Assembly (NCBI GenBank): GCA_017433295.1
Contig: JAFRHL010000051.1
Coordinates: 1-64,000 of the forward strand
Origin: Eubacterium sp.
GTDB taxonomy: Bacteria; Bacillota; Clostridia; Lachnospirales; Lachnospiraceae
Reading direction: 5' to 3'
DNA length: 64,000 nucleotides
The notes beneath the pieces are model-generated. The model was not told the DNA's origin and made no database searches. It saw nothing but the letters and a program-made list of their open reading frames with translations. Below, one piece after another: positions 17,500-63,993 of this stretch. The first letter of the stretch is position 1; the number at the start of each line of letters is the position of its first letter. A program made the position numbers and the translations under genes.

Positions 17500-18048
17500 A
17501 AAAATATAATTTTTTTGATTCAGGGGGTTGTGAAAAGGGGGTTTTTCAGTGCGTTAGGTGAAAGGGTTTTTCATTTCCTTTCCAAGACGCACCTTGAAAA
17601 GCTCCATACACCTGCCTGGAATGATACCGCCTGAATTGAATGTGCATACTCCGCTCGTCTTTCAGATCACAACGGCCCGGAAACATCAGAACCCGGGTCA
17701 GGAACGGTTCCAGGGAAGAACACAGGAAATTTCATACCTTAACATTTAAATTCATTTTAAAGATAACAGTAGAAACCGTACAGAGGCCGGCAACTAAGAA
17801 GATCTTTTTTGCCTGCCTCTGTATCTTTGTGCTGTTATCTGCGGCTTACTGGCCACTTGAAGCCGATATAAACAGTGCAATACATGTGAAAAGGGGGTGG
17901 ATAACCATGCAAAAACTGTGGATAGACAGTGGATAGAGCTGTTGAGAAAAATATCAATTACGAACAAAAAGACGGGCATCATCCATTATCCAAATATCAG
18001 GGCGATGGATGATGTCCTTTTATGTTGTGGACAAAGAAAGGAGAAAGA
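17500..18048 (+). promoter_or_regulatory. Regulatory intergenic region before the adhesin gene
   Basis: No convincing gene. The exact 12-mer GTGAAAAGGGGG occurs at 17530 and 17886. At 17531-17548 and 17559-17573 two small palindromes (TGAAAAGGGGGTTTTTCA and TGAAAGGGTTTTTCA) lie 28 bases apart. Three GTGGATA sequences (17896, 17917, 17928) resemble DnaA boxes (TGTGGATAA) with one mismatch each. A leader terminator ends the region at 17974-18021. Confidence 0.5.
17974..18021 (+). terminator. Leader attenuator hairpin before the adhesin gene
   Basis: GGGCATCATCCAT (17974-17986) and ATGGATGATGTCC (18005-18017) pair over 13 bases with one wobble, followed by TTTTAT. The GGGCATCA/TGATGTCC arms resemble the leader hairpin at 16732. 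Confidence 0.6.
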
Positions 18049-21000
18049 ATGATTTTAAAGAAAAAGGTCATCAAAGTGATGTCCGGGATGCTTGCAGCAG
18101 TGACTCTGTTTACTTCCTGCCTCTCTCCGGTCCCGGTTTATGCTGCAGGCGAAAAAACGGGAGAGGAACTTGACGCCTATGTGGCTTCTCTTCCTGAACT
18201 GACTGAAGTTGCAGACCACCTTTACCCCTATGAAGCAGTATCAGTGAAAGAACTGACCGTAACGGTGGGTGATAAGACAGATCTGGCCGGAGATTTTTCC
18301 GGTATAAGCTTTGATAATAAAAAAGTAAAGCTCCATTTTTACCGGGCAGTCGATGACCAGGGAAAAACCTTCAGTACAGAAAAACCGGGGACCTTTATGG
18401 CGACCTATTATGCGGAAGCCCTCTTAAGCCACAATGATTACCGCTTTACAAGAAGAGTGATCGTGAATGAAAAAGGGGGTGCTGATACAGTTGCCACGCC
18501 AGCGTCAGAAGGCACTACAGAGGGAAAAAACGGTTCCGGCAATGAATCTGCTAAAACCAGTTCTTCTGAAAAGGAGGACGAGGAAGACGGAGCAGATACT
18601 GCAAGCCTGCCGGAAGATGAGTATGTGCCCGAAGACTATGTAGATAAGAGCGAAGAAAATGACGATCCTGCTGATGCAAAAGAGGATAACCAGGGCACTG
18701 CCGAACTGGAAGAAAGTTCATTAAATGCCAGCAAGGCAGACCAGCTCTCCTATAACATCCTCTATGTGAAAAAGTATGGCAATAAGGATTATGTCAATAC
18801 GGATACCCTGGATTATTCCTCCATGGTATTTCCGGTGACCGTGATCCGTGGACTTGCCACTTACAACGTAAAAAAGCAGAAGGAATTTGAGGTCACCAAT
18901 AACTTCATCGCAGGCATGACCTACTCTCTTCCTGTTTATGACGTAGACGAGAAGAGTGATTACTATGTCGCCATGCCGGATGTCAACCTGTTTAGCAGGG
19001 AACTGGCTTCTTATGACATCACTGTGATCTATAATAACGATTACGCTGAAAAGATTGAAGGCTATCATTACGAGGATAAGATCCTATACATCCCAAAAAA
19101 TGTGATCGAAGATCCCCAAAATGAAAATCCCCTGTATGAGGGCGGACCCCTTGCGGTCCAGCTGAACTACGCGTTCGGCGGATTGGATACCGATCCTGAA
19201 GGAAATGCCGACTTTGGCAAGACATTGCCTGTGCAGGTCTTAAATACCAAAAAAGCAGTGCCTGTAAATAAAAGCATTAAAGTAGACAATGTTTTTGAGG
19301 AATCCGTTACGATCCCTGATGTAGTAAGTGGGAAAGACGGCTATAAAAAAGAGGATTTCAGCATCTTCTTAAACGGCATGATGGTACCGGTCGATGATAA
19401 AGTCTGGGATTATGAGGATGGGGATATCGTGATCCACTCCTCTCCTGCCATCATCTCCAATATCAACGTGGTCTATGATGGGAAAGGACTTGTATCGAAA
19501 GCACTGAGTTTCCTTAACAGGCTGACATCCGCCCAGGTAAGTGCCCAGGCAAATGGGACAAGGACCACAACAGCGGATATGAAGGTCTATAAGAATAAGG
19601 ACAAGGAAGTAGTCACACTGGGGTTTGATACGGACAAGATGTATGTCGGCTGGAGGGGAACCTTTGAATCAAGAGTCCTCTTCGCACCGCATGTTGGTGA
19701 GGACAATTACAATACGGTAAAGAACCTTAAGAATTATGATGAACTTGAGAATTCCACCTATTACCTTTATGGAGGTTTTACCCCTAACCACAGCGTATCT
19801 GACAGCGACTGGCAGTGGGCCATTGAGTCTTACACCATCGGTAAGAACAAGGCGGAAGGTGTCGGGGACAACTTAAGCAGAAACAAACTTATTGAGAGGA
19901 ACGAAGGGGAGAATTCTGATCAGAAACTCACTATTTACCAGTGGTTCATCAAGGCAAAGAATAACCTGGAGAAATCAGTGAACCACTTCGGTGCAGGGAC
20001 ATCCTGGGGCCAGGACAATGGCTCTGACTGGTATGTGCTTGAGTCCGACGGCGGCCACTCCAACGGGATCGGCGGGGATACCAACTTTGCCTTCCGGGTG
20101 CCGAAAAAAGTGACCGGTTCGTCCGTCAACCTTGTTTCTGATGAGAATAATAAAGGGTATGGTTCCGGCAATCCGGATATCACTTTCTCCTATGATAACC
20201 TGGATGTTTCCAACAATGACATCTACTTTGCTGCAGGCTGTACCCATTTTGATTCGACTGCGGGCGGTACCGATGACAATGGAAATGACATGAACCGGAT
20301 GTATGTATCCTGCCTTGACCTTAAGGATGATTATGTGGTCCTTGCCTTTACCTCCGCCATCAAGTCAAAGGACAATTCCTCCCAGGAAGCCTGTGCAGTA
20401 TATAAGTTTAAGATCACAAGGCCGATCAGCATTAAGAAAGAATCAGGGAACGCCGGCATCAGTGAAGGGAACAGCTGTTATGCCGATCTTTCCGGTGCAA
20501 CCTATGGCCTGTATGCATCAGGTGAAGATGCTGCATCTGATAAAGACCGGGTGGGAACCTTTACAACAAAGGCTGACGGTACGACCAATGAGGTCTCTGT
20601 ATCCCCGGGGACCTATTATGTCAGGGAACTGGCAGCCCCGAAAAACTATGCCATTAATGGCGAAGCAGTAAAGATCACTGTCACAGGCAGCAGTGAAAGC
20701 CAGATCTTTAAGATGAGTGACCCTCCACAGAATAATCCTCTGGATATCGTCCTTGTAAAGATCGATAAAGAAACTGGCAAGCCGGAACCACAGGGGGCGG
20801 GAGCGTTAGCCGGAGCCCAGTTTACTGTGAAGTATTTTGACAATGAAAACGGCATAACGAACGGCAGCCCCAAAAAGACCTGGGTATTTAAGACTGACGA
20901 TAAAGGGGAAGTCCATCTGACAGATGCCTATAAAGTATCCGGTGACGATCTTTATAAGAATACTACAGGCACAGGGGCCCTTCCCATTGGCACTTATTCC

Positions 21001-24000
21001 ATTCAGGAGACCAGGGCCCCGGCAGGATACCTGATCGTGGATAACAGCGTGGACGTACAGGCAGTGAAAGCTTCCGGCAATGCTGAGACTTTTTCCGCCT
21101 TTGTTACGAAGAATGTTGCGGACCAGGTCATCCGGGGTGGTGTCCAAATGAAAAAAGAGGATGCCATCACAGGCAGCACACCCCAGGGTGATGCAGACCT
21201 TTCCGGGATCACTTTTGAGATCACAAATGCAAGCCCCCACAGTGTGAGGGTTGATGGAAAAGACTTCGCCAAAGGTGCAGTCGTCAAGTCCATCGTAACA
21301 GATGCAAAGGGGATCGCAAAAACCGGAAATAAAGACCTGCCCTATGGTGACTACACGATAAGAGAGGTTAAGACCAACTCTTCTTATCTCCTGACCGATG
21401 GAAAGGCAAAGTCCTTCCAGATCCGGGAGGATGGAAAGACCGTAGAGATTAATGAGGCCTTTAAGGACCAGGTGGTAAGAGGTGATGTTGAAGTCGAAAA
21501 ACTTGACCGGGAGACGGATGCCCGTGTTCCCCTTGGATCTGCGACCCATGTAGGGACCACCTTTGAGATCACAAATAAAAGCCTTCATCCGGTATATGTT
21601 GATGGTAAACTCTACGAACCTGGAAAAGTATGTAAAAGCATCCGTGTAGAGAAGGAAAAAGAAACTGCAAAGACTACAGGAAAGGCCCTTCCCTATGGCA
21701 GCTATAGCATAAAGGAAGTGGCTGTCGGGACAGGTTATCTCCTGACGGATACCAAAGAGCGGACCTTCCAGATCCGCGAAGATGGAAAGACAGTCAGTAT
21801 CTCTAAGGACGGGGATGTAAAGGAACCCGTCCTCAACCAGGTCAAACGCGGAGACTTTAACTTCATAAAGGTCTTTGAAGATGCTGAGAGCAACGCCAAC
21901 ATGAACGCCCTTTCCCACATTCCCTTTGAGGTCATCTCAAAGACTACCGGGGAAAAGCACATCATCGTGACCGATGAGAATGGCCAGTTTGATTCGGATA
22001 ATGGCTGGACCTCCCACAGCAAAAACACCAATGCCAACGATGCTGCGGTGGATGCCGACGGCAAGGTCGATGAATCAAAGCTGACTTCCGAAGCCGGGGT
22101 ATGGTTTGATACTGACCGGGAAGGCAATAAGGCAAAGAAGGTGGATGATACTTTAGGCGCTCTGCCTTATGATACTTATGTCTTAAACGAGCTTTCCTGT
22201 AAGGCAAATGAAGGAGCGAAACTGATCAAAAACAAGGAGTTTACCATCCGTGTGGATAAGAGGGATATCTCCCTTGGTACCATGGATGACCCGGCTGACC
22301 GGAGTATCGGAACGGTTGCAGCAGACGGAAAGACGAAAGATCATTTCGGTTCCAATGATTCTGAGACCATCATCGATACCGTAAGCTATAAGGGACTGAC
22401 GAAGGGACAGAAATACACCATGAAGGGAACCCTGATCGACAAGGAGACAGAGGAACCGGTCGTGATCAGTGGTAAAAAGGTCACTGCAAAGGAGTCCTTC
22501 CTGGCAGCCGGAAGCTCCGGCACCATTGAGATGGAATTTGTCTTCCCCAAAGATGCCTTAAAGGGCAGGGAAGTCGTAGCCTTTGAGACCTGTGAGACCG
22601 GAGGTAAGGTCATCACTGCCCATGAAGACATTGAGGACGCAGACCAGACCGTATCCTATCCTGATATTGAAACAGAAGCCAAAGACGGCCAGACAGAAAG
22701 CCATTTCGGTCTCAATGATTCCACTACCATCAAAGACACCGTAAAGTATATCAACCTCAAACCAGGAAAGGGATACACCATGACCGGGACACTCATGGAT
22801 AAAGCGACCGGTAAAGCAGTCCTTTCTGAAGGAAAAGAGATCACTGCCGAAAAGAAGTTCACACCGGATAAGAAGGACGGGGAAATAGAGTTGTCTTTTG
22901 AAGTCCCGGCAGGCCTGCTTACCGGAAAGAGCGTTGTCGCTTTTGAACGATGTGAACAGGATCAGATGGAGATCGCGGTCCACACCGATATCAAAGACGA
23001 GGACCAGACCGTCCATTATCCGGATATCGGAACGGAGGCAAAGGACTCTGTAAGCCACACCCATTATGGGGAAGGAAGTTCAGAGAAACTGGTTGATATC
23101 GTATCTTATGTAAACCTGGAGCCCGGAAAGGAATATACCTTAACCGGTGTTTTGATGGATAAGGAAACCGGGAAGGCACTTCTTAATGGCGATAAGGAGA
23201 TCACGGCAGAAGCAGTTTTTACCCCCGAGGAAAAGGACGGGCAGGTGGAGATGGACTTTACCTTCCCGGCTGAGATCATGAAGGGAAAGGCTGTCGTGGC
23301 TTTTGAGACCTGCTATCGGGAGAAAAAACAGATCGCAGTCCACACTGACATTAAAGATGAGGACCAGACAGTATATTATCCTGAGATCGGGACTGAAGCC
23401 GCCGATGATGAAACGAAGACCCATTACGGTGTTTCCAGTTCAACAAAGCTTATTGATACGGTAACGTATAAAAACCTTGAACCCGGAAAAGAATACCGCA
23501 TGGTCGGCACCCTGATGGACAGGGAAACGGGAGAAGCCATCTTAAGTAACGGTAAAGAGATCCGGTCTGAAGCAGCCTTTACCCCGGAAGAAAAAGACGG
23601 GGAGATGGAACTGACCTTCGAGTTCCCCGAAAACCTCCTTGCCGGGAAAACGGTCGTGGCTTTTGAGTCCCTTCATCTGGAAGAAAGGGAGGTGGCCGTC
23701 CATGCTGATATCTCCGATGAGGCCCAGACGGTTTACTATCCGGGGATTGGAACAGAAGCAAAGGATGAAGGGAGCCAGAGCCATTACGGTCTGAATGCTT
23801 CCATAAAACTTATCGACAGGGTGACCTACCAAAACCTTGAGCCAGGCAGGGAATATATCATGAAGGGAACTCTGATGGATAAGGCGACCGGAGAGGCTGT
23901 CCTTGCTGACGGCAAGGAGATCACTGCTAAAGCAGCCTTTACCCCTAAGAAAAGGGATGGGGAATTAGAGCTTGTCTTTGAATTTCCGGCAAATACCCTG

Positions 24001-25143
24001 GCAGGAAAGAGTGTTGTAGTTTTTGAGACCTGCTGCCAGGAGGAAAAGGAAGTGGCAGTCCATGCCGATATCCAGGATGAAGCCCAGACAGTCCATTATC
24101 CAAAGATTGGGACAACCCTTAATGACAGCCAGACAAAGGACCATGTGGCTGCAGCCGGGGAGATGTTCACCCTGATCGATACCGTAGCTTATCAGAACTT
24201 TGAGCCCGGAAGGAAATATACCATGCAGGGCAGGCTTATGGACCAGGCTACCGGTAAAGCATTCCTGGAGAATGGGAAGGAAGTCACTTCTGAGATTTCC
24301 TTTACCCCGGAAGCCAAAGACGGGACCGTGGTACTGAAATTCATCGTAAGCCGTAAGAACCTGGAATCCGTAAGCCTGGTTGCTTTTGAAAAAGCGATAA
24401 CAGCAGCTGAGGATACTGCAAAGGAGGATCAGGAAAAAGCAGGTACTTCCTCTGAGGAAGCCCAAAAGGAAAATCAGGAACCGACTCTTGTTGCCTCCCA
24501 TGAGGATCTCAAAGATGAGGCCCAGACTGTCCACGTTCCCCATATCGCCACTAACGCTACAGATGCAGGCACAAAGAGCCATACCGGGAAAGCTTCAAAG
24601 ACCGTAACGGTCCAGGATAAGGTGACATATAAGAACCTGATCCCGAAAAAGAAGTATAAACTGACCGGGATCCTGATGGACAAGGCCACTGGCAAAGCAT
24701 TCACAGACAGCAAAGGCAAAACCTTTAGTGCAACGAAGGAGTTTACACCCGATAAAGCGGATGGGAATGTAACCCTGTCCTTTAAGGTCTCCGGAGACCT
24801 TGTCAGTGGAAAGAGCCTTGTTGCTTTTGAACATTTAAGCCTTAACAGCGTGGATGTTGCAGTCCATACGGATATATCTGATAAAGACCAGACTGTGGCT
24901 TACAAGAAAGCGGAGGCTACTATCCAGAAGAAATCAGGAACATCCAGCTCCGGCGGAAACAGCGGCACTTCCGGCAGCAGTGGAAAGAGTTCAGGAAAGA
25001 GTGTCCTGTCCCGTTACCTGCCAAAGACAGGTGACAATAACAATATCGCATTCTGGATCATTGTAATCCTTGCATCCAGTCTGGCACTAGGAGGATGCGT
25101 GACTTATCTGTACCGTAGCAAAAAGAGAAAACCAAATCATTGA
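18049..25143 (+). CDS. Giant LPxTG-anchored surface adhesin with Cna-B/SpaA and VaFE repeats
   Basis: A 2,364-residue surface protein. A signal peptide (about 1-33, ending VYAA) is followed by an acidic linker and a large N-terminal region (about 230-790). SpaA/Cna-B-like domains (about 790-1420) contain KIDKETG and APAGYLIVD. Seven VaFE-type repeats follow, with YTMxGTLMDK, VAFE and DEDQTV motifs, then a Ser/Gly linker, LPKTG (about 2324), a membrane helix and a KKRK tail. Isopeptide or ester cross-links are expected. It probably mediates cell contact and may aid mating. ATG 18049 has AAAGGAG 6 bases upstream, so I prefer it to 18022. Confidence 0.88.
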   Translation: MILKKKVIKVMSGMLAAVTLFTSCLSPVPVYAAGEKTGEELDAYVASLPELTEVADHLYPYEAVSVKELTVTVGDKTDLAGDFSGISFDNKKVKLHFYRAVDDQGKTFSTEKPGTFMATYYAEALLSHNDYRFTRRVIVNEKGGADTVATPASEGTTEGKNGSGNESAKTSSSEKEDEEDGADTASLPEDEYVPEDYVDKSEENDDPADAKEDNQGTAELEESSLNASKADQLSYNILYVKKYGNKDYVNTDTLDYSSMVFPVTVIRGLATYNVKKQKEFEVTNNFIAGMTYSLPVYDVDEKSDYYVAMPDVNLFSRELASYDITVIYNNDYAEKIEGYHYEDKILYIPKNVIEDPQNENPLYEGGPLAVQLNYAFGGLDTDPEGNADFGKTLPVQVLNTKKAVPVNKSIKVDNVFEESVTIPDVVSGKDGYKKEDFSIFLNGMMVPVDDKVWDYEDGDIVIHSSPAIISNINVVYDGKGLVSKALSFLNRLTSAQVSAQANGTRTTTADMKVYKNKDKEVVTLGFDTDKMYVGWRGTFESRVLFAPHVGEDNYNTVKNLKNYDELENSTYYLYGGFTPNHSVSDSDWQWAIESYTIGKNKAEGVGDNLSRNKLIERNEGENSDQKLTIYQWFIKAKNNLEKSVNHFGAGTSWGQDNGSDWYVLESDGGHSNGIGGDTNFAFRVPKKVTGSSVNLVSDENNKGYGSGNPDITFSYDNLDVSNNDIYFAAGCTHFDSTAGGTDDNGNDMNRMYVSCLDLKDDYVVLAFTSAIKSKDNSSQEACAVYKFKITRPISIKKESGNAGISEGNSCYADLSGATYGLYASGEDAASDKDRVGTFTTKADGTTNEVSVSPGTYYVRELAAPKNYAINGEAVKITVTGSSESQIFKMSDPPQNNPLDIVLVKIDKETGKPEPQGAGALAGAQFTVKYFDNENGITNGSPKKTWVFKTDDKGEVHLTDAYKVSGDDLYKNTTGTGALPIGTYSIQETRAPAGYLIVDNSVDVQAVKASGNAETFSAFVTKNVADQVIRGGVQMKKEDAITGSTPQGDADLSGITFEITNASPHSVRVDGKDFAKGAVVKSIVTDAKGIAKTGNKDLPYGDYTIREVKTNSSYLLTDGKAKSFQIREDGKTVEINEAFKDQVVRGDVEVEKLDRETDARVPLGSATHVGTTFEITNKSLHPVYVDGKLYEPGKVCKSIRVEKEKETAKTTGKALPYGSYSIKEVAVGTGYLLTDTKERTFQIREDGKTVSISKDGDVKEPVLNQVKRGDFNFIKVFEDAESNANMNALSHIPFEVISKTTGEKHIIVTDENGQFDSDNGWTSHSKNTNANDAAVDADGKVDESKLTSEAGVWFDTDREGNKAKKVDDTLGALPYDTYVLNELSCKANEGAKLIKNKEFTIRVDKRDISLGTMDDPADRSIGTVAADGKTKDHFGSNDSETIIDTVSYKGLTKGQKYTMKGTLIDKETEEPVVISGKKVTAKESFLAAGSSGTIEMEFVFPKDALKGREVVAFETCETGGKVITAHEDIEDADQTVSYPDIETEAKDGQTESHFGLNDSTTIKDTVKYINLKPGKGYTMTGTLMDKATGKAVLSEGKEITAEKKFTPDKKDGEIELSFEVPAGLLTGKSVVAFERCEQDQMEIAVHTDIKDEDQTVHYPDIGTEAKDSVSHTHYGEGSSEKLVDIVSYVNLEPGKEYTLTGVLMDKETGKALLNGDKEITAEAVFTPEEKDGQVEMDFTFPAEIMKGKAVVAFETCYREKKQIAVHTDIKDEDQTVYYPEIGTEAADDETKTHYGVSSSTKLIDTVTYKNLEPGKEYRMVGTLMDRETGEAILSNGKEIRSEAAFTPEEKDGEMELTFEFPENLLAGKTVVAFESLHLEEREVAVHADISDEAQTVYYPGIGTEAKDEGSQSHYGLNASIKLIDRVTYQNLEPGREYIMKGTLMDKATGEAVLADGKEITAKAAFTPKKRDGELELVFEFPANTLAGKSVVVFETCCQEEKEVAVHADIQDEAQTVHYPKIGTTLNDSQTKDHVAAAGEMFTLIDTVAYQNFEPGRKYTMQGRLMDQATGKAFLENGKEVTSEISFTPEAKDGTVVLKFIVSRKNLESVSLVAFEKAITAAEDTAKEDQEKAGTSSEEAQKENQEPTLVASHEDLKDEAQTVHVPHIATNATDAGTKSHTGKASKTVTVQDKVTYKNLIPKKKYKLTGILMDKATGKAFTDSKGKTFSATKEFTPDKADGNVTLSFKVSGDLVSGKSLVAFEHLSLNSVDVAVHTDISDKDQTVAYKKAEATIQKKSGTSSSGGNSGTSGSSGKSSGKSVLSRYLPKTGDNNNIAFWIIVILASSLALGGCVTYLYRSKKRKPNH
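22318..24900 (+). repeat. 360-bp tandem VaFE-type repeats
   Basis: Repeat units start at 22318, 22678, 23038, 23398, 23758 and 24118, exactly 360 bp (120 codons) apart, with a seventh at about 24556 after an Ala/Glu-rich insertion. Exact spacing over five intervals suggests unequal crossing-over or gene conversion keeps the length constant, although the units differ clearly in sequence. Confidence 0.85.
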
Positions 25144-55058: not shown

Positions 55059-55316
55059 ATGATTCAGATTAGACCAGTTTCAGATTTGAGAAATAAGTTT
55101 ACAGACATTGAAAATCTTATAAAGACGGGGCAACCCGTATATCTTACCAAAAATGGTTATGGTTCCATGGTTGTTCTTAGCTTAGATGCTTATTCAAGAC
55201 TTACAGATGATGTTGAGTATGCTTTAGATGAAGCCGACAGACAGGCTAAGGAAACGGATGTAAGGTATACACATGAAGAGATGTTTTCTAAATTGAGAGG
55301 AGCCACTAATGGATAA
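55059..55316 (+). CDS. Phd/YefM-family antitoxin
   Basis: An 85-residue antitoxin: IQIRPVSDLRNKFTDIENLI, VYLTKNGYGSMVVLSLDAYS, then a toxin-binding tail (YTHEEMFSKLRGA). It would bind the operator at 54986-55027 and neutralise the RelE-like toxin. AAAGGAG precedes ATG 55059. The end overlaps the toxin start by 8 bases. It is the second toxin-antitoxin pair in the window, lying in the ICE itself. Confidence 0.9.
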   Translation: MIQIRPVSDLRNKFTDIENLIKTGQPVYLTKNGYGSMVVLSLDAYSRLTDDVEYALDEADRQAKETDVRYTHEEMFSKLRGATNG

Positions 55317-55632
55317 TGAATATGGGCTAAGATATTTGCCTCTCTTTTATGAAGACATGTACGAAAAGATTACTTATATCAGAGAGAAGCTTCTTAATCC
55401 TGAAGCTGCAGATGATCTGATTGATGCTGTAGAAAAAGCTATATTGAAAAGACTTCCAAATTGTGAGAGCTTTGAGCCGTATTATTCAGTGAAAGAGCGT
55501 GAGTATCCATATTATAGGATATATGTAAAGAATTTTACTGTTTACTATGTTGTCATACACACGGACGATAGAAAGATTATGGAAGTAAGAAGATTTTTAT
55601 ACAACAGACAAGATAGAGACAGAATTATTTAA
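55309..55632 (+). CDS. RelE/ParE-family toxin
   Basis: A 107-residue toxin: YLPLFYEDMYEKITYIREKL, RLPNCESFEPYYSVKEREYP, YRIYVKNFTVYYVVIHTDDR, and MEVRRFLYNRQDR at the end, the RelE/ParE fold with the usual C-terminal R-x-LY. It overlaps its antitoxin. RelE members cleave ribosome-bound mRNA while ParE members poison gyrase; the sequence does not separate them clearly. It probably keeps the ICE in the population. Confidence 0.87.
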   Translation: MDNEYGLRYLPLFYEDMYEKITYIREKLLNPEAADDLIDAVEKAILKRLPNCESFEPYYSVKEREYPYYRIYVKNFTVYYVVIHTDDRKIMEVRRFLYNRQDRDRII

Positions 55633-55980: not shown

Positions 55981-58900
55981 ATGGCGAAATACAATGATAT
56001 AAGGCGTCTGGCAGGGCAGCACGCAAAAGAGATCACACGGTTCCCCAGGGATTATCTCGATTACCTTGATACTGCTGCCAGACTGTACCGGTATGATTTT
56101 GGTGATACCCTTCTGATCCATGCCCAGAAGCCGGAAGCGACCGCCTGTGCGGAACTGGAGATCTGGAATAACCGGATGGGCCGGTGGGTCAACCGGGGAG
56201 CAAAAGGGATCGCACTCATTGATGACAGCACCCACAGAAAAGCATTACGGTATGTTTTTGATCTCTCAGACACCCATATGGTCAAAGGAGGGAGGTCACC
56301 CTGGCTGTGGCAGCTGACCCCGGAGATGGAGATCCCCATCATGGACCATCTGGTGGATACCTATGACCTGGATCCCTCTGATATCCGCACTGTCCCTGAT
56401 GCCATCAGGGAGATCGTTCGGCTTTATACAGAGGACAGCTTAAGGGATGCCATGGACGGCCTGGGATACGAACTCCATGATTCCCTGCTCGAAGGGATGG
56501 ACGAGGATGCCCTCAGTCATTCTTTTAAGTTTCTCCTGGAGCATTCGGCATTTTATATGATTATGAGACGGTGCAGGCTGGAACCGCTGGCATATCTTTC
56601 AGCCGAAGACTTTCAGGGGATCACGGATTACAATACCCTTTCCGTGCTCTCTTTTTTGGGGAACGGGGTCCATGACATTGCCGAACCTGTATTAAGGGAT
56701 ATTGGACGGACCCTGATGCGCCTGTATCAGGAAAAAGCCAGGGAAGAAAAGCAAAAAGAACTTGATAATTCATTTAATACAGGCTATAATGAATTTAACA
56801 CTTTAAATCAAGAAAGCATAGAGCAGGAAGGAGCGGATGGACATGACACAGAGGATGGAGATCACATACCAGCGCAAAGGGGACTACCTCTTCCCCAACC
56901 TGACCATAGAAGAGAGTCCCCTGACTTATGGGAAATATGGGATGCTGAGGGAGAACTATCTACGGGAGAACCGGAGGAACTGGTACCGGAGCATGAGCCT
57001 GACGGGGAAATTGCCAGAGCACCTGCGGGAAATAGACAGGAAGGCAGCCGAGAGGATGGAACAGATCACGGATCAGATAGCGGTGAAGGAGAAGGTAACA
57101 CAGGAACTGAAAGCCAGGGACATGATGGAATGGATACAGCGGATGAACAACATCCGCAGCCGGGCCGAGGAGATCGTCCTGGCGGAATTAGTCTACAGCT
57201 GACGGACAATGATGAATGGAGAGATATAGACGGAGCAGAGGATGAATTACCCTCTGCTTTTTCTTTGCCCGAATACCCCTCCACAGAAGTACAGAAAAGG
57301 AAGATCACCGAAAGGGTGCAGGCCCTTTTTGCGGTGCAGATCCCGATTTCTGCTGATATGGTAGATGAGATCTTAAGGACCGGCAGCAACCATACCGGGA
57401 GCCAGTTGCGGCTTATCTTCCAGTTTATGAGCGAGCAGACCCCGGAAGAATACACGGATTTTGTTAAAAGGGAGTATGGCAGGGGAGGGAAAGGACTTGT
57501 CATCAGAGGCAGGGAATACTCTGTCTGGTTTGACGAGCCCGGCATGCAGATTGCCGTAGGGCATTCCGTGGAGGATAAGATGCTGGATAAGGCCCTTCTT
57601 TCCTGGGAAGACATTTCCGAAAGGATCCGCCAGCTGCTCCTGCAGGGTGAGTACGCCCCGCAGCCGGTCCTTGATGCAGCCAGGGACAATGCAGTAAAGG
57701 AACATGCCCAAGTCCTTGCCTATATGGAAAGGGAAATGGATAAAGAAGTAGCCCAGATCGTTTTCGGGGATACAGAGATGTTTGCCGGGGGTTTTCCCGA
57801 TGTGACCGATAAGATCTCTACCTATCTTTCATCCCCTTCCAATGTGGATGAGCTGGTGGAAAGGCTGTCCGGCCTTGCAGCAGCCTGGAGGGATGAACCG
57901 GACATCATGCGGTCCCGTTTTTATAATCCGGAAAGAGTGTTAAAGCAGTTTGTGAACTTTGCAAAGGAAAGGATCCCTTTTGATGCGAGGGAAGGCTTTG
58001 CCTGGGAGGAACTTAAGGTTTTCATCACCCAGGATGAGATCGATGCCTTCCTTGCTGACGGCGGGCCATATTCGGATGGGAGACTTTCCACCTACTCTTT
58101 TTATCTCAGGCATGAGGATGAGAAAGAACGGATTGATTATATCAGGAACAGGTATGGGACCGGAGGCAGGAGCCATGCCTTATCCGGTGCAGACGATTCC
58201 CATGCTGATTATGACGCAAAAGGGCTGCGGCTGGAAAGGGGAAATTACGGGAATCCCAAAGCCAGTGTTTTGCTGACCTGGCCGAAGGTAGCCAAACGGG
58301 TGGATTATCTGATTAAAAATGACCGCTTCCTCACAGCAGGCGACCATGCCCGGATACCGGCTTACGAGCGGGGACAGATGGCCAGACAGGTTATTCTTTT
58401 TTATTCCCGTCTGCCAGAGGATATCCACAGGCCATTTACCAGGGAACTGTTTAATGACACCTCCATAAAAGAAGTGACAGTGATGCTGTCGGAACCAGAG
58501 AACACAGATCACCTGCTCTCTATGATGGATGAAGCCCTGGCATCCCTTCCCCTTGACTATGAAGGATATGAACAAAAAGTACGGATACTCTCGCAGATCC
58601 ACTCTTATGCGGATGGTGACTTCACCATCTTCCCACAGCATGTTGTGGAACCGGAACCCTGGAGTCCTTCCAGACAACAGCTCAGCTTTTTTGATCTGGT
58701 TACCGCTCCACTGGAGCAGTCCATGGAAGAAAGCGGAGAAGCAGAAAAAGAGCCCGGTCAGGAGCCTGGACAGGAAGCCGGTGAGACAGACCACGGTAGT
58801 GCTGATGGGATTTTCGTTGGTACTGAAGAACAGGAGGAGCCTGATAAAGAACTATCCGTCGAAAATCCCGTGGATCAACCCATTCCATTAAACGGGGCCA

Positions 58901-61900
58901 TCTACATAGAGGGAAGGGAGTTCCGGATCGACAACGTGGACTATGACAGAGGAGTGGTCAGCCTGCAGGACATGACAATGGCAAGGGAGGCCAGGTATCC
59001 AATTTTCCGGGAGGAACCTCTGGAGCGGGTGCGGACACTTCTTCGGGAAGAGGGTATTAAGGATCAGGAAGATTTTCAAAATCATGGAGAACCGGATGAA
59101 CATGAAACAGCCCATGAGCCAGTCAATTTTCGGATTACTGCTGATGATCTGGGAGCCGGTAGTCCAAAGGCTAAATTCAATGCCAACATGGAAGCCATCT
59201 ACCTGTTAAAAGCCCTGGAAGATGAGGGCAGGCTGGCGAATGCAAAAGAGCAGGAAGTCCTGTCGGGATATGTCGGATGGGGAGGACTGCCCCAGGCCTT
59301 TGACCTGGAAAACAAAGACTGGGAGGAGGAAGCCCGTGAAGTAAAGAGTATCCTGAACCCGGAAGAATACCGGGCAGCCAGGGCTTCGACCTTAAACGCT
59401 TTTTATACCCCTCCCACCGTGATCAAAGCCATGTATGAGACCCTGCAAAGGATGGGGCTGTCTTCCGGCAACGTCCTGGAGCCTTCCTGCGGTATCGGCA
59501 ACTTCATGGGCCTGGTACCGGATGGCATGCAGGATATCCGGATGTACGGTGTGGAGCTTGACAGCATCTCCGGGAGAATCGCAGCCCAGCTCTACCAGAA
59601 AAACCGGATCGCCATCCGGGGTTTTGAGGAGACCGACTTCCCTGACAGTTTTTTTGACTGTGTGATCGGCAATGTCCCTTTTGGCCAGTACAAGGTGCCT
59701 GACCGCAGGTATGACCGCCTGGGTTTCCTGGTCCATGATTACTTTATTGCAAAAGCCCTGGACCTGACCAGGCCGGGAGGCGTGGTAGCTGTCCTGACTT
59801 CTTCGGGAACTATGGATAAGCTGAGTGAATCTGTCCGGGAATACCTTGCAGGCCGGGCTGACCTGCTGGGGGCTGTCCGTCTTCCCGACAACGCCTTTAT
59901 GCGTAACGCCAACACCAGGGTAGTGGCGGATATCCTCTTCTTCCAGAAACGGGACCGGGCTCCCCTCACCCTGCCTGACTGGGTGCATCTGGCAGATACA
60001 CCAGAAGGGTACCGGGTCAATTCCTACTTTGTGGAACATCCGGAGATGGTCCTTGGTAAATTTACCATGGAAAGCACCCAGTACGGGAGACAGGAGCTGA
60101 CAGTAAAAGCCTTTGAAGGGGCCGTCCTTGCCAGCCAGCTTGCCGAAGCGGTCAGGGGGATCGAAGGGACTATAGAGGAAGCAGAACTAACTGACTCCGA
60201 GATTGATGATGAGACGGAGATTTCTATCCCTGCAGACCCGGAAGTAAAGAACTTCGGCTATGCCAATGTCAATGGGGAGGTCTACTACAGGGAGAATTCC
60301 CGGATGCACCTTATGGACCTCCCGGTAAGGACAAAGGAAAGGATCCTGGGGATGATCGGGATTCGGGATGCCACCCAGGAGCTTCTGGACCTGCAGATGA
60401 ATGATGGCAGTGATGCAGAGGTGAAAATCCTGCAGGACAGGCTGACAGACCTTTATGACAGCTTTACGGCCAGCTACGGTCTGATCAGTTCTACAGCAAA
60501 CCGGAGGGCTTTTGCCCAGGATTCCAGTTACTGCCTTCTCGCTTCCCTGGAAATCCTGGATGAGGAAGGAAAGTTGCTTCGTAAGGCGGATATCTTCAGC
60601 AAACGTACTATAAGAAGGGCAGAACCGGTGACCAGCGTGGATACCCCCAGTGAAGCCCTGGCTCTTTCCATCGGGGAGAAGGCCGGGGTGGACCTGCCTT
60701 TCATGTCCGGACTCTGCGGCAAAACAGAGGAAGAGATCATACAGGATCTTTCCGGTGTGATATTTAAGAATCCCCTGACGGAACAGTTTGAAACATCAGA
60801 TGAATATCTTTCCGGGAACGTCCGGGAGAAACTATCCATCGCAAAAGACTTTGCCGCAAGGGATCCGGATTATCAGGTCAATGTGGAATACCTGGCCCGG
60901 ATACAGCCCAAAGACCTGGATGCTTCCGAGATCGAGGTCCGTCTGGGTGCCACCTGGGTAGATCCTGCTTATGTGCAGCAGTTCATGGAGGAGACCTTTC
61001 AGACTCCATGGTACCTTGCAGCAAAGGAGATCCGGGTGGAGTTTTCCCCGGTAAACGGCCAGTGGAACGTCTCCGGTAAGACAAAAGACCCGGGCAATGC
61101 CCTGGTCAATTCCACCTATGGCACAGGAAGGGCCTCTGCCTACCGGCTTCTGGAGGATGCCTTAAATTTAAGGGATACCAAACTTTATGACACTGTGGAG
61201 GACGCCGAAGGGAAGGAACACCGCGTACTCAACAAAAAAGAGACCATGCTGGCCCAGCAGAAGCAGGAAATGATCCGTGAAAAATTTAAGGAATGGATTT
61301 TTTCGGATATGGACCGCAGGGAGGACCTCTGCAGAACATACAACGAACTTTTTAACAGCATACGTCCCAGGGAGTATGACGGGTCTCATATCCGTTTTGT
61401 GGGAATGAGCCCGGAGATCACCCTGATGGACCATCAGAAGAATGCGGTAGCCCACATCCTTTACGGGCACAATACCCTGCTCGCCCACTGTGTCGGAGCA
61501 GGAAAGACCTTCCAGATGGTGGCTGCAGGAATGGAAAGCCGAAGGCTGGGACTGGCAAGGAAATGCCTCTATGTCGTGCCAAACCATCTGACAGAGCAGT
61601 GGGGAAGTGATTTCCTGCGTCTTTATCCGGGAGCCAATATCCTGGTAGCCACAAAAAAAGACTTTGAACCAGCCAACAGGAAAAAGTTCTGTTCCAGGAT
61701 CGCCACCGGGGACTATGATGCTGTGATCATCGGACATACCCAGTTTGAGCGGATCCCCCTCTCCCGGGAAAGGCAGATGGCTTCCATCCGGAAACAGATC
61801 GATGACATAGAGATGGCCATCGAGGATGCTGCAGACCAGGAAGGGACCCGTTATTCCATCAAACAGATGGAAAAGACCAGAAAAGCCCTGGAGGTAAGGC

Positions 61901-63993
61901 TGGCAAAGCTGAATGACCAGGAGCGGAAAGACGATGTGGTGACCTTTGAACAGCTTGGAGTAGACCGGCTCTTTGTGGATGAATCCCATAATTTCAAAAA
62001 CCTCTTCCTCTATACAAAGATGCGGAATGTGGCAGGTATTTCCCAGACAGATGCCCAGAAATCTTCAGATATGTTCATGAAATGCCAGTATTTAGACGAA
62101 CTCACCGGAGGGAAGGGAGTGACCTTTGCCACGGGCACCCCGGTCAGCAATTCCATGGTCGAACTGTATACCATCATGCGTTACCTGCAATATGATACCT
62201 TGCAGAAGCTTGGCCTCTATCACTTTGATTCCTGGGCAGCTTCTTTTGGGGAAACAGTAACAGCCATCGAGCTGTCACCGGAAGGGACGGGCTACCGGGC
62301 AAAAACACGCTTTGCCCGTTTTTTCAACCTTCCGGAGCTGATCTCCCTCTTTAAGGAGGCAGCAGATGTGCAGACAGCAGACATGCTGGATCTTCCCGTA
62401 CCGGAAGCCGAATACATCAATGAAGTCTTACGTCCCAGCCAGATCCAGAAAGACATGGTCGCATCCTTTGCTGACCGGGCAGAGGTGGTCCGAAATGGCG
62501 GTGTGGATGCCAAAGTGGACAACATGCTCAAGATCACAAACGATGGAAGGAAATGTGCCTTGGACCAGAGGCTCATTAATGACATGCTCCCCGATGAACC
62601 CGAGAGTAAAGTCAACCTCTGTGTGAAAAATGTCTACGATGTCTGGAAGGAAACCGGGACTGACCGACTTACCCAGCTGATATTCTGTGACCTTTCTACA
62701 CCGAAAGCAGACGGAAGCTTCAATGTCTACGATGATATCCGGGAAAAGCTGTCTGCAAGGGGAGTTCCCCGGGAGGAGATCGTTTTTATCCATGAAGCCA
62801 ATACAGAGACCAGGAAAGCAGAGCTCTTTGCAAAGGTCCGTTCCGGCCAGGTCCGGATCCTTCTGGGGTCCACCCCGAAACTGGGAGCCGGGACCAACGT
62901 CCAGGACAGGCTGATAGCCCTCCATCACCTGGACTGCCCCTGGAAGCCCTCTGACCTTGAGCAGCAGGAAGGGCGGATCCTCCGGCAGGGGAACCGGAAC
63001 CCTAAGGTCAGGATTTTCCGCTATGTGACAGAGGGGACCTTTGATGCCTATATGTGGCAGATCCTTGAGAACAAGCAGAAGTTCATCTCCCAGATCATGA
63101 CCTCCAAATCCCCGGTCCGGGCCTGTGAGGATGTGGATGATGCCGCCCTTTCCTATGCAGAGATTAAAGCCCTTGCTACCGGCAACCCTTATATCAAGGA
63201 AAAAATGGATCTGGATATCCAGGTCAGCAAGCTGAAACTTTTAAAGGCAAGCCACACCAGCAACCGTTACCGGCTGGAGACCGATATCGCCAAACGCTAC
63301 CCTCTGGAGATCGCTGCAGCCAAAGAGCGGATCGAAGGCCTTACCAAAGATGCCAAAGCGGCAGCCCCGGTGATCGAAAAAGACAAAGATGACTTTTCCA
63401 TGGTAATCGGCGGTAAGGAATATACCGACAGGAAGGAAGCAGGTACCGCCCTGATCGCTGCCTGTGCCGGATTAAAAGCCGTGGGGTCCGGGGGTACAGT
63501 CGGGGATTATCAGGGATTTTCCCTCTCTTCTTCCTTTGACAGTTTCTTTCAGACCTACAGGCTTACCATCAAACGCCAGTGCAGCTATACCATCGAAGTC
63601 GGCAGGGATCCATACGGGAATATCCAGCGTATCAATAATGCTTTATCCGGTATCACAAAACAGCTGACCGAAACAGAACAGAAGCTTGAAAACCTGAACA
63701 GGCAGCTTGCTACTGCAAAGGAAGAAGTGGCAAAACCCTTCCCCCAGGAAGAAGAGTTAAAGGCGAAAAATGAGAGGCTTGCTGAGCTAAACAGCCTTCT
63801 TAACATGGATGAGAGGGATGCTGCAGGAACCTTGGGCCTTGATGAAGAAACCGAGGTAAACGTTTCCGAAGTTGAGTCCAGGATCGCTGACCGAAAACCG
63901 TCCGTCCTTGACCGCCTGCAGGAGAAAAAAGAGGCCGTCTCAAATTCACTGGAAAAGGGTACAAAATCCAGGAAGCTGGCTCCAGCCTTGTAA
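55981..63993 (+). CDS. Giant methylase-helicase (LtrC/SNF2-like) of the ICE
   Basis: A 2,670-residue protein. The N-terminal part (1-280) has FGDTLLIHAQKPEATACAEL and NRGAKGIALID, an ArdC/LtrC-like region. A disordered linker (about 280-430) follows. Then come an N6-methylase-like domain (EPSCGIGNF near 1167, GNVPFG near 1231) and a SNF2/DEAD helicase (GAGKT near 1838, VDESHN near 1999, EQQEGRILRQGNRNPK near 2330), and a coiled-coil end finishing SVLDRLQEKKEAVSN. It may protect or remodel entering DNA. NVPF replaces the usual NPPF. GAGGAGG precedes ATG 55981. The linker DNA also encodes TnpV in another frame. Confidence 0.9.
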   Translation: MAKYNDIRRLAGQHAKEITRFPRDYLDYLDTAARLYRYDFGDTLLIHAQKPEATACAELEIWNNRMGRWVNRGAKGIALIDDSTHRKALRYVFDLSDTHMVKGGRSPWLWQLTPEMEIPIMDHLVDTYDLDPSDIRTVPDAIREIVRLYTEDSLRDAMDGLGYELHDSLLEGMDEDALSHSFKFLLEHSAFYMIMRRCRLEPLAYLSAEDFQGITDYNTLSVLSFLGNGVHDIAEPVLRDIGRTLMRLYQEKAREEKQKELDNSFNTGYNEFNTLNQESIEQEGADGHDTEDGDHIPAQRGLPLPQPDHRRESPDLWEIWDAEGELSTGEPEELVPEHEPDGEIARAPAGNRQEGSREDGTDHGSDSGEGEGNTGTESQGHDGMDTADEQHPQPGRGDRPGGISLQLTDNDEWRDIDGAEDELPSAFSLPEYPSTEVQKRKITERVQALFAVQIPISADMVDEILRTGSNHTGSQLRLIFQFMSEQTPEEYTDFVKREYGRGGKGLVIRGREYSVWFDEPGMQIAVGHSVEDKMLDKALLSWEDISERIRQLLLQGEYAPQPVLDAARDNAVKEHAQVLAYMEREMDKEVAQIVFGDTEMFAGGFPDVTDKISTYLSSPSNVDELVERLSGLAAAWRDEPDIMRSRFYNPERVLKQFVNFAKERIPFDAREGFAWEELKVFITQDEIDAFLADGGPYSDGRLSTYSFYLRHEDEKERIDYIRNRYGTGGRSHALSGADDSHADYDAKGLRLERGNYGNPKASVLLTWPKVAKRVDYLIKNDRFLTAGDHARIPAYERGQMARQVILFYSRLPEDIHRPFTRELFNDTSIKEVTVMLSEPENTDHLLSMMDEALASLPLDYEGYEQKVRILSQIHSYADGDFTIFPQHVVEPEPWSPSRQQLSFFDLVTAPLEQSMEESGEAEKEPGQEPGQEAGETDHGSADGIFVGTEEQEEPDKELSVENPVDQPIPLNGAIYIEGREFRIDNVDYDRGVVSLQDMTMAREARYPIFREEPLERVRTLLREEGIKDQEDFQNHGEPDEHETAHEPVNFRITADDLGAGSPKAKFNANMEAIYLLKALEDEGRLANAKEQEVLSGYVGWGGLPQAFDLENKDWEEEAREVKSILNPEEYRAARASTLNAFYTPPTVIKAMYETLQRMGLSSGNVLEPSCGIGNFMGLVPDGMQDIRMYGVELDSISGRIAAQLYQKNRIAIRGFEETDFPDSFFDCVIGNVPFGQYKVPDRRYDRLGFLVHDYFIAKALDLTRPGGVVAVLTSSGTMDKLSESVREYLAGRADLLGAVRLPDNAFMRNANTRVVADILFFQKRDRAPLTLPDWVHLADTPEGYRVNSYFVEHPEMVLGKFTMESTQYGRQELTVKAFEGAVLASQLAEAVRGIEGTIEEAELTDSEIDDETEISIPADPEVKNFGYANVNGEVYYRENSRMHLMDLPVRTKERILGMIGIRDATQELLDLQMNDGSDAEVKILQDRLTDLYDSFTASYGLISSTANRRAFAQDSSYCLLASLEILDEEGKLLRKADIFSKRTIRRAEPVTSVDTPSEALALSIGEKAGVDLPFMSGLCGKTEEEIIQDLSGVIFKNPLTEQFETSDEYLSGNVREKLSIAKDFAARDPDYQVNVEYLARIQPKDLDASEIEVRLGATWVDPAYVQQFMEETFQTPWYLAAKEIRVEFSPVNGQWNVSGKTKDPGNALVNSTYGTGRASAYRLLEDALNLRDTKLYDTVEDAEGKEHRVLNKKETMLAQQKQEMIREKFKEWIFSDMDRREDLCRTYNELFNSIRPREYDGSHIRFVGMSPEITLMDHQKNAVAHILYGHNTLLAHCVGAGKTFQMVAAGMESRRLGLARKCLYVVPNHLTEQWGSDFLRLYPGANILVATKKDFEPANRKKFCSRIATGDYDAVIIGHTQFERIPLSRERQMASIRKQIDDIEMAIEDAADQEGTRYSIKQMEKTRKALEVRLAKLNDQERKDDVVTFEQLGVDRLFVDESHNFKNLFLYTKMRNVAGISQTDAQKSSDMFMKCQYLDELTGGKGVTFATGTPVSNSMVELYTIMRYLQYDTLQKLGLYHFDSWAASFGETVTAIELSPEGTGYRAKTRFARFFNLPELISLFKEAADVQTADMLDLPVPEAEYINEVLRPSQIQKDMVASFADRAEVVRNGGVDAKVDNMLKITNDGRKCALDQRLINDMLPDEPESKVNLCVKNVYDVWKETGTDRLTQLIFCDLSTPKADGSFNVYDDIREKLSARGVPREEIVFIHEANTETRKAELFAKVRSGQVRILLGSTPKLGAGTNVQDRLIALHHLDCPWKPSDLEQQEGRILRQGNRNPKVRIFRYVTEGTFDAYMWQILENKQKFISQIMTSKSPVRACEDVDDAALSYAEIKALATGNPYIKEKMDLDIQVSKLKLLKASHTSNRYRLETDIAKRYPLEIAAAKERIEGLTKDAKAAAPVIEKDKDDFSMVIGGKEYTDRKEAGTALIAACAGLKAVGSGGTVGDYQGFSLSSSFDSFFQTYRLTIKRQCSYTIEVGRDPYGNIQRINNALSGITKQLTETEQKLENLNRQLATAKEEVAKPFPQEEELKAKNERLAELNSLLNMDERDAAGTLGLDEETEVNVSEVESRIADRKPSVLDRLQEKKEAVSNSLEKGTKSRKLAPAL
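56843..57202 (+). CDS. tnpV: TnpV-family protein nested out of frame inside the helicase gene
   Basis: A 119-residue frame, one base shifted from the helicase frame. It has the TnpV pattern: ITYQRKGDYLFPNLTIEE, LTYGKYGMLRENYLRENRRN, LTGKLPEHLREIDRKAAERM, VTQELKARDMMEWIQRMNNI and RSRAEEIVLAELVYS at the end. AAGGAG (56828-56833) lies 9 bases before ATG 56843 and 3 before an earlier in-frame ATG at 56837. The helicase reads the same DNA as a low-complexity linker of about 120 residues. TnpV is a small transposon protein of unknown role. Confidence 0.78.
   Translation: MTQRMEITYQRKGDYLFPNLTIEESPLTYGKYGMLRENYLRENRRNWYRSMSLTGKLPEHLREIDRKAAERMEQITDQIAVKEKVTQELKARDMMEWIQRMNNIRSRAEEIVLAELVYS

Follow-up and report, generated by a model that had tools for sequence, protein, structure and literature searches.

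The tnpV gene of this Eubacterium sp. lies, one base out of frame, within the gene for a giant DarB-like methyltransferase-helicase, and the overlap of about 120 codons recurs across the phylum with a constant frame, place, and start signal. The window, that is, the whole stretch of 64,000 nucleotides that was analysed (positions 1 to 64,000 of contig JAFRHL010000051.1), had been the subject of an earlier note which proposed such nesting from the letters alone. The gene-in-gene arrangement is confirmed in the window and it is wider than was first noticed. The explanation that we favour, at a probability of roughly 86%, is that tnpV is a genuine gene in the helicase linker, that it came there by an ancient insertion, and that both frames would have been translated since then, with an occasional escape of tnpV from the nest. 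Judged from sequence, this appears to be an unusually well-supported case of a stretch of bacterial DNA that encodes two proteins. The features in the window are as follows.

55981..63993 (+), outer gene, a giant DarB-like N6-methyltransferase/SNF2-type helicase; a single ORF of 2670 aa with N6_Mtase, ResIII, and Helicase_C domains
55981..56832 (+), helN, the conserved N-terminal block before the nested gene; ArdC-N-like by its relatives
56828..56833 (+), Shine-Dalgarno sequence AAGGAG inside the helicase coding sequence; best aSD energy in the window, -12.5
56836..57201 (+), dual-coded stretch; helicase residues about 286-407, an acidic low-complexity linker
56837..57202 (+), nested tnpV ORF of 121 aa, +1 relative to the helicase, from PF14198 and the ORF list; first in-frame ATG at 56837
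57331..57960 (+, approximate limits), block B, the next conserved helicase block and the end of the linker; profile match
59374..59955 (+), N6 DNA methylase domain; PF02384, E 5.6e-9
61417..62991 (+), ResIII/SNF2-type helicase to Helicase_C domains; PF04851, PF00176, and PF00271

In the ORF list, 56837-57202 (+) is wholly within 55981-63993 (+) with an offset of one base (+1). The TnpV of the window matches PF14198 over model positions 1-111, which is the whole model, with an E value of 4.8e-40 and 136.4 bits where the Pfam cut-off for this family is 27 bits, and it also matches phrog_24764, a phage-family profile of unknown function, with an E value of 3.4e-38. Thus the claim that the +1 frame encodes a full TnpV-like protein was borne out, and so was the description of the helicase frame over tnpV as a low-complexity linker, the same bases giving a Gly/Asp/Glu/Ser-rich sequence in that frame. 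This tnpV is the sole TnpV match in its assembly, which is rated 91% complete, and by its context, not by its protein family, it is not a free-standing recombinase-type transposon gene because it sits inside the helicase ORF. When the window gene was taken alone, the helicase frame stayed open in 31% of 5000 synonymous shuffles of the tnpV frame and the tnpV frame stayed open in 6% when the helicase frame was shuffled synonymously, so that this permutation was not significant. Since the openness of either frame is not improbable in this one gene, the case for nesting rests on homology and on the family-wide data.

The outer ORF unites an N6-methylase and an SNF2-type helicase in one chain, as seen with Pfam and phrog profiles, and positions 60001-61998 match phrog_10089, a DarB-like antirestriction family, with an E value of 7.9e-194. 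The helN block of the window has no Pfam match, and the related block of a Listeria locus (L251) scores 25.9 bits with ArdcN. The neighbours in the window include a VirB4-type ATPase of the CD1110 family, a CD1108-family protein, topoisomerase III, and a MobA/MobL relaxase, and from these neighbours the setting of the helicase is that of a conjugative element. Other genes were seen nearby. A PhdYefM-type antitoxin gene and then a ParE-like toxin gene lie directly 5' of the helicase at 55059-55632 (+), the toxin match of 21.4 bits being slightly below the Pfam cut-off of 23. On the same contig, a helN-like stretch at 64209-64409 is part of a second ORF (802 codons) immediately 3' of the giant helicase. 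An ORF of 2373 residues at 18022-25143 (+) has SpaA prealbumin-like repeats in the part that was tested and probably codes for a surface protein.

The relatives used for comparison were 80 helN places fetched by the helicase N-terminus and not by tnpV, with the window and L002 added; these places are nearly all of the top helN matches listed and some of the weaker ones, selected by hand. Eighty ORFs have a complete helN (77 distinct blocks), and in 77 of these ORFs a TnpV ORF was found directly behind it; all 77 were in the +1 frame, none being in +0 or +2 even though any frame had been allowed. The tnpV frame is thus free of frequent stops in the relatives, which the earlier note had named as a refuting observation, and it is kept at the same place and in the same frame. 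The helicase frame was open past the end of TnpV in 75 of the 77 loci. The two exceptions are L108, where the contig ends, and L075, which has one helicase-frame stop within the overlap and an intact tnpV, showing that the outer frame can be lost. TnpV was absent behind a complete helN in L122, L124, and L127. L130 and L144 are outside this tally because their helN is incomplete, and both have a +1 TnpV-like ORF. Four other loci, L132, L133, L136, and L142, had been considered as helicases with a long linker and no tnpV, and were rejected as such because each has a divergent +1 TnpV, the Pfam score having been taken for L133 only. In the class as a whole, TnpV was present in 140 of 391 genomes (130 above the cut-off) and helN matches in 96 of 391, and 45 of the 150 TnpV matches listed, out of more than 150 in all, come directly after a helN match. 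Degenerate peptide patterns of the helicase N-terminus gave three loci in genome contigs and none in viral contigs. A scan with the single TnpV of the window as the query gave no matches; profile scans from small TnpV alignments did retrieve loci.

The arrangement is also found beyond the class. The N-terminus of a Streptococcus suis relative was searched over 398 genomes of a phylum sample, with matches in 25, and 30 of the 40 matches listed were examined. In all 20 loci with helN above 180 bits there was a nested +1 TnpV; 16 of these loci are outside the class of the window and the remaining four include the window itself. In this sample no nested tnpV was found in L281 (476 codons) and L284 (299 codons), in which helN is weak with full coverage. 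Long out-of-frame ORFs without a TnpV match are present in L268, L270, L273, L277, L287, and L288, and therefore the case is carried by homology, place, and start signal and not by the length of the ORF. Among plasmids, 9 of 294 plasmid records were checked for nesting and 8 of the 9 have it, namely, those of Cohnella herbarum, Monoglobus pectinilyticus, Subdoligranulum variabile, Ruminococcus albus, Streptococcus agalactiae, Streptococcus suis, Anaerococcus prevotii, and Listeria monocytogenes; the Enterococcus faecalis record (L249) is without it. The outer ORF of the Listeria record is merely a 386-codon ArdC-like gene, and in the Monoglobus record the beginning of helN is on an ORF of its own. 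The most divergent nested TnpVs were detected with a profile trained on these loci, and Pfam, which is independent of that profile, confirms three of six such ORFs: it passes the TnpV of S. suis, R. albus, and Listeria, and those of A. prevotii (24.8 bits), S. agalactiae (16.2), and L133 (20.1) are below its cut-off.

The nested gene has a Shine-Dalgarno sequence of its own, as had been claimed, but the start at 56837 that was assigned to it is not the likelier one. AAGGAG is separated by 3 nt from the ATG at 56837 and by 9 nt from 56843, where the next in-frame ATG lies, and by this spacing the start would more probably be 56843, giving a protein of 119 aa; a start scan by aSD energy likewise selected 56843. 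The aSD energy at the nested tnpV start was -8 kcal/mol or lower in 72/72 genes compared to 12.5% of 3865 control groups (p 1.3e-45), which were matched for size and made up of same-frame start codons from other parts of the helicases, and the medians were -11.9 and -5.1, respectively. The helicase's own start has a median of -12.4 in 71 loci, which is about equal to that of nested tnpV. It could be argued from the constant strand and +1 frame of tnpV that TnpV is made from the helicase by a +1 ribosomal slip and not by internal initiation. We regard this as extremely unlikely because of the strong Shine-Dalgarno sequence, because the start codon is ATG in 71/72 nested genes, mostly where the conserved domain begins, and because the distance from the upstream stop to the tnpV start has a median of just 14 codons.

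Substitution patterns in both frames had been suggested as a check on the overlap. In 21 pairs of loci (2353 codons), each locus being used once and some pairs being closely related lineages such as L098 and L099, the differences at codon positions 1, 2, and 3 of the tnpV frame were 0.127, 0.089, and 0.243, and thus the pattern follows the tnpV frame, which is under purifying selection of the coding type. Four-fold sites differed at 188 of 694 positions (0.271) in tnpV and at 455 of 1428 (0.319) in helN (p 0.027). Most four-fold sites of tnpV alter helicase residues, and since these sites are only slightly slower in the overlap, the residue-level constraint from the helicase side is weak. If tnpV were a fossil which landed in the linker and is no longer translated, so that only the helicase frame matters, it would agree with gene tables of plasmid records in which the helicase or ArdC gene is the only one given (four of seven annotated records, see below). 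Against this are the coding-type substitutions, the start signal in every one of the 72 genes, the conservation of the protein across the phylum, and the complete absence of stops from the tnpV frame, in which 2.3 per gene are expected when the helicase frame is permuted synonymously. A fossil is therefore scarcely credible, and we hold to tnpV as a gene whose frame is presumably translated.

The helicase frame looks to be selected as well, from its avoidance of stops and from its composition. There was no stop in this frame in 72 different nested genes compared to 2.6 per gene expected on synonymous permutation of the tnpV frame, a zero that is partly definitional because nested genes are by definition inside an open helicase ORF, and the fair control is therefore the stand-alone tnpV. 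In the third frame the nested genes have 14.6 stops, about equal to the 14.0 obtained by shuffling. Among the 28 stand-alone tnpV genes are second copies at L077 and L083, L122, and also L046, which belongs to the L075 locus with its broken helicase frame. The helicase-equivalent frame is open in none of the 28, the number of stops being 1-11 with a mean of 6.0. In a further stand-alone set that partly repeats the places of the 28 genes, this frame was open in one of 61 rows (L201). Of 34 IMG/VR loci, some of them near-copies and two taken from a single place, seven were open, each with helicase blocks in the open frame; the remaining 27, examined only in the helicase-equivalent frame over tnpV, have 2-18 stops.

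The composition of the helicase reading differs in the same comparison. In 54 well-scoring nested genes it is 22% acidic and 12.6% hydrophobic with 0.0% cysteine, and in the 28 stand-alone genes the same frame gives 6.7% acidic and 23.9% hydrophobic residues; the unusual make-up of the linker, for which an overlapping gene had been offered as the explanation, thus belongs to the dual-coded stretch. Compared to their own synonymous permutations the nested genes are more acidic (21.8% and 19.2%) and less hydrophobic (12.6% and 13.5%), with p about 1e-9 to 6e-9, a shift that is consistent but small. The stand-alone genes shift the opposite way relative to their own permutations (p 0.003 to 4e-6). 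These data bear on whether the helicase frame is one chain at all, for tnpV could be made together with separate pieces of the helicase, the last of them from an internal start after tnpV. The stop in L075, the shortened helicase ORFs in L069, L083, L084, and L116, and two plasmid gene tables that give TnpV without a helicase would fit such a split gene. This is nevertheless very unlikely because the helicase frame is open in 75/77 loci compared to a mean of six stops in stand-alone tnpV, because the acidic composition departs from the permutations (p about 1e-9), albeit with a small effect, and because the helicase's own start has a strong Shine-Dalgarno sequence in the 71 loci.

Helicases without tnpV had been expected to have a short linker, and all three do: the distance from helN to the next conserved block is 54-80 residues in these (n=3) and 132-431 residues, with a median of 157.5, in the helicases that contain tnpV (n=66). 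A Q[LI]S[LF]F motif, which we take to resemble a sliding-clamp-binding motif, was found in 18 of 68 helicases compared to 0.2 expected on shuffling. It is 39 residues past helN in L124 and L127, which are without tnpV, and 120-152 residues past helN in 14 helicases with tnpV before the motif. From this spacing tnpV is an extra block between helN and the motif in those 14. In the window and in L002 the motif is far downstream, near residue 900 in the window. The motif was seen within the linkers of L086, L092, L107, L124, L127, and others. In the tnpV-less, short-linker locus L122 a separate tnpV gene is present just 5' of the helicase (1046-1560), with what by eye is an apparent hairpin and T-run between the two.

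The distances of TnpV and helN between loci are correlated (r 0.81 over 57 loci, a value not reached in 2000 permutations), and therefore the tnpV/helN pair has for the most part been inherited as a unit. A tree of 113 TnpV rows, 48 nested and 65 stand-alone, needs eight changes of state, five of them forced by starred branches, compared to about 36.6 when the labels are shuffled; the tree has 117 columns and is unrooted and weakly resolved. Loci below set TnpV scores were excluded from the tree, distance, and composition counts, and near-copies from the tree. A clade of 51 rows has 44 nested genes and seven stand-alone genes, L243, L147, L190, L193, L221, L223, and L239 (on a long branch), whose old helicase frame has 3-10 stops each. 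L147, L190, and L193 are directly 3' of a large serine recombinase and L243 is near one on the other strand. These seven read as escapes from the nest, the likely direction of change being outward. More generally, a large serine recombinase is within 400 nt upstream of stand-alone tnpV in 5 of 61 rows, and the 10 neighbouring ORFs of stand-alone genes that were tested are mixed, two being Mob_Pre relaxases and the others of various kinds. In another large but weakly supported group of the tree, 53 of 56 rows are stand-alone.

How tnpV came to be in the linker can be read in two ways. If it arose de novo by overprinting of the helicase linker, every stand-alone TnpV would be an escapee, and the stand-alone copies at several places in the nested-rich clade are in keeping with this. 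It is unlikely, however, because the linkers of the tnpV-less helicases (n=3) are too short as a template, because the conserved Pfam protein is TnpV and the low-complexity one is the helicase reading, which is the reverse of the usual outcome, and because the other large tree group is almost wholly stand-alone. The short linkers, the conserved inner family, and the low-complexity outer reading favour insertion, and with the many stand-alone TnpVs also among the grounds we infer that insertion was the origin. The supposition that tnpV may have landed in the linker and that the helicase then read through it is therefore retained as to the insertion, but not as an event local to this genome since the landing is an old one that relatives across the phylum share.

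Taken in order, the events may have been these. A stand-alone gene of the tnpV type would have been inserted long ago into a short disordered linker of the helicase, which joins the N-terminal ArdC-like block to the remainder of the DarB-like methyltransferase-helicase, in an orientation and register that let the helicase frame read through tnpV. The tnpV frame would give a conserved protein, begun at an internal ribosome-binding site that belongs to tnpV, and the helicase frame, kept free of stops, acidic, and hydrophilic, would serve as a flexible tether, with both proteins presumably made from a single transcript. Some copies of tnpV would later have left the nest, some of them to lie beside serine recombinases, and the old helicase frame would then have gained stops. 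It is possible, and we propose it only tentatively, that this is an ancient phylum-wide dual-coding module in which a guest gene in the linker of an antirestriction helicase yields an acidic tether by out-of-frame reading, in which the two proteins are an obligate pair whose co-expression and co-transfer are assured by the shared DNA, and in which passage into and out of the nest is reversible.

TnpV has been postulated to aid excision by its resemblance to lambda Xis (PMC3158075), and according to a review the recombinase of Tn4451 carries out both integration and excision with no such factor (PMC5704250). PADLOC, PHROGs, and NCBIfam returned no function for TnpV, and its profile had no credible match to solved structures, the best being a designed protein with an E value of 0.039. 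As a working reading, TnpV may be a small helper in the processing or protection of DNA during transfer that is made from the same message as the methyltransferase-helicase, and thus a small partner in DNA-transfer or antirestriction functions.

Several known systems resemble this one in part. With the embedded spanins Rz/Rz1 of lambda, too, a whole gene is read in the +1 frame inside a longer one, and other phages have overlapped or separated versions (PMC6139136). Rz and Rz1 are both short lysis proteins with a known joint function, whereas the outer gene here is in most loci a helicase of about 2000-3700 codons and, unlike in Rz/Rz1, the guest comes from a family of mobile elements whose members are often free-standing genes. 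Mobilizable transposons of the Tn4451/Tn6104 type have a TnpV of the same family, PF14198, which is free-standing there and nested here. DarB-like and polyvalent antirestriction proteins of Tn1549-like elements have the methylase-helicase dyad in conjugative elements of Firmicutes, as is the case here (PMC5512222); a word search of the main text of that paper gave neither TnpV nor any word starting with "overlap". IMEs that carry tnpV have been described in the snf2 genes of ICEs (PMC9815147), thereby combining tnpV with a helicase gene of this kind, and a second paper also describes IMEs in SNF2 genes (PMC5704250). Such IMEs are whole elements that interrupt snf2, whereas a nested tnpV does not close the helicase frame and is passed on together with the helicase. 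Therefore gene-in-gene overlap, TnpV, DarB-like proteins, and IMEs in snf2 are all known already, and the new part would be the nesting, which was not met in the titles and the beginnings of abstracts listed by searches of open-licence papers, nor in the passages cited here; this does not imply that it is absent from print.

A layout with a second tnpV was seen in some loci. L099 has a nested tnpV and another at the end of the helicase ORF, and in both L136 and L099 a stand-alone tnpV starts where the helicase ORF ends early, the nested copy being divergent in L136. A tnpV by the helicase 3' end as an alternative layout of the pair was considered and dropped because an IME in snf2 would fit better (PMC9815147, PMC5704250). 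In L083 (G076:C216) there are two tandem copies of tnpV and the helicase ORF, of 392 residues, ends near the second.

The pair also exposes a gap in annotation, for the gene tables never give both genes. Seven annotated plasmid records have the pair; two give TnpV only, four give the helicase or ArdC only, one gives neither, and none gives both, these tables being incomplete by their own description. Since the overlap recurs, and since the free-living relatives of TnpV are a natural control for each frame alone, the origin and the upkeep of dual coding in bacteria are directly testable with this pair. In L145 and L146 the public tables show TnpV, and not the helicase, over enclosing ORFs of 2086 and 2193 codons.
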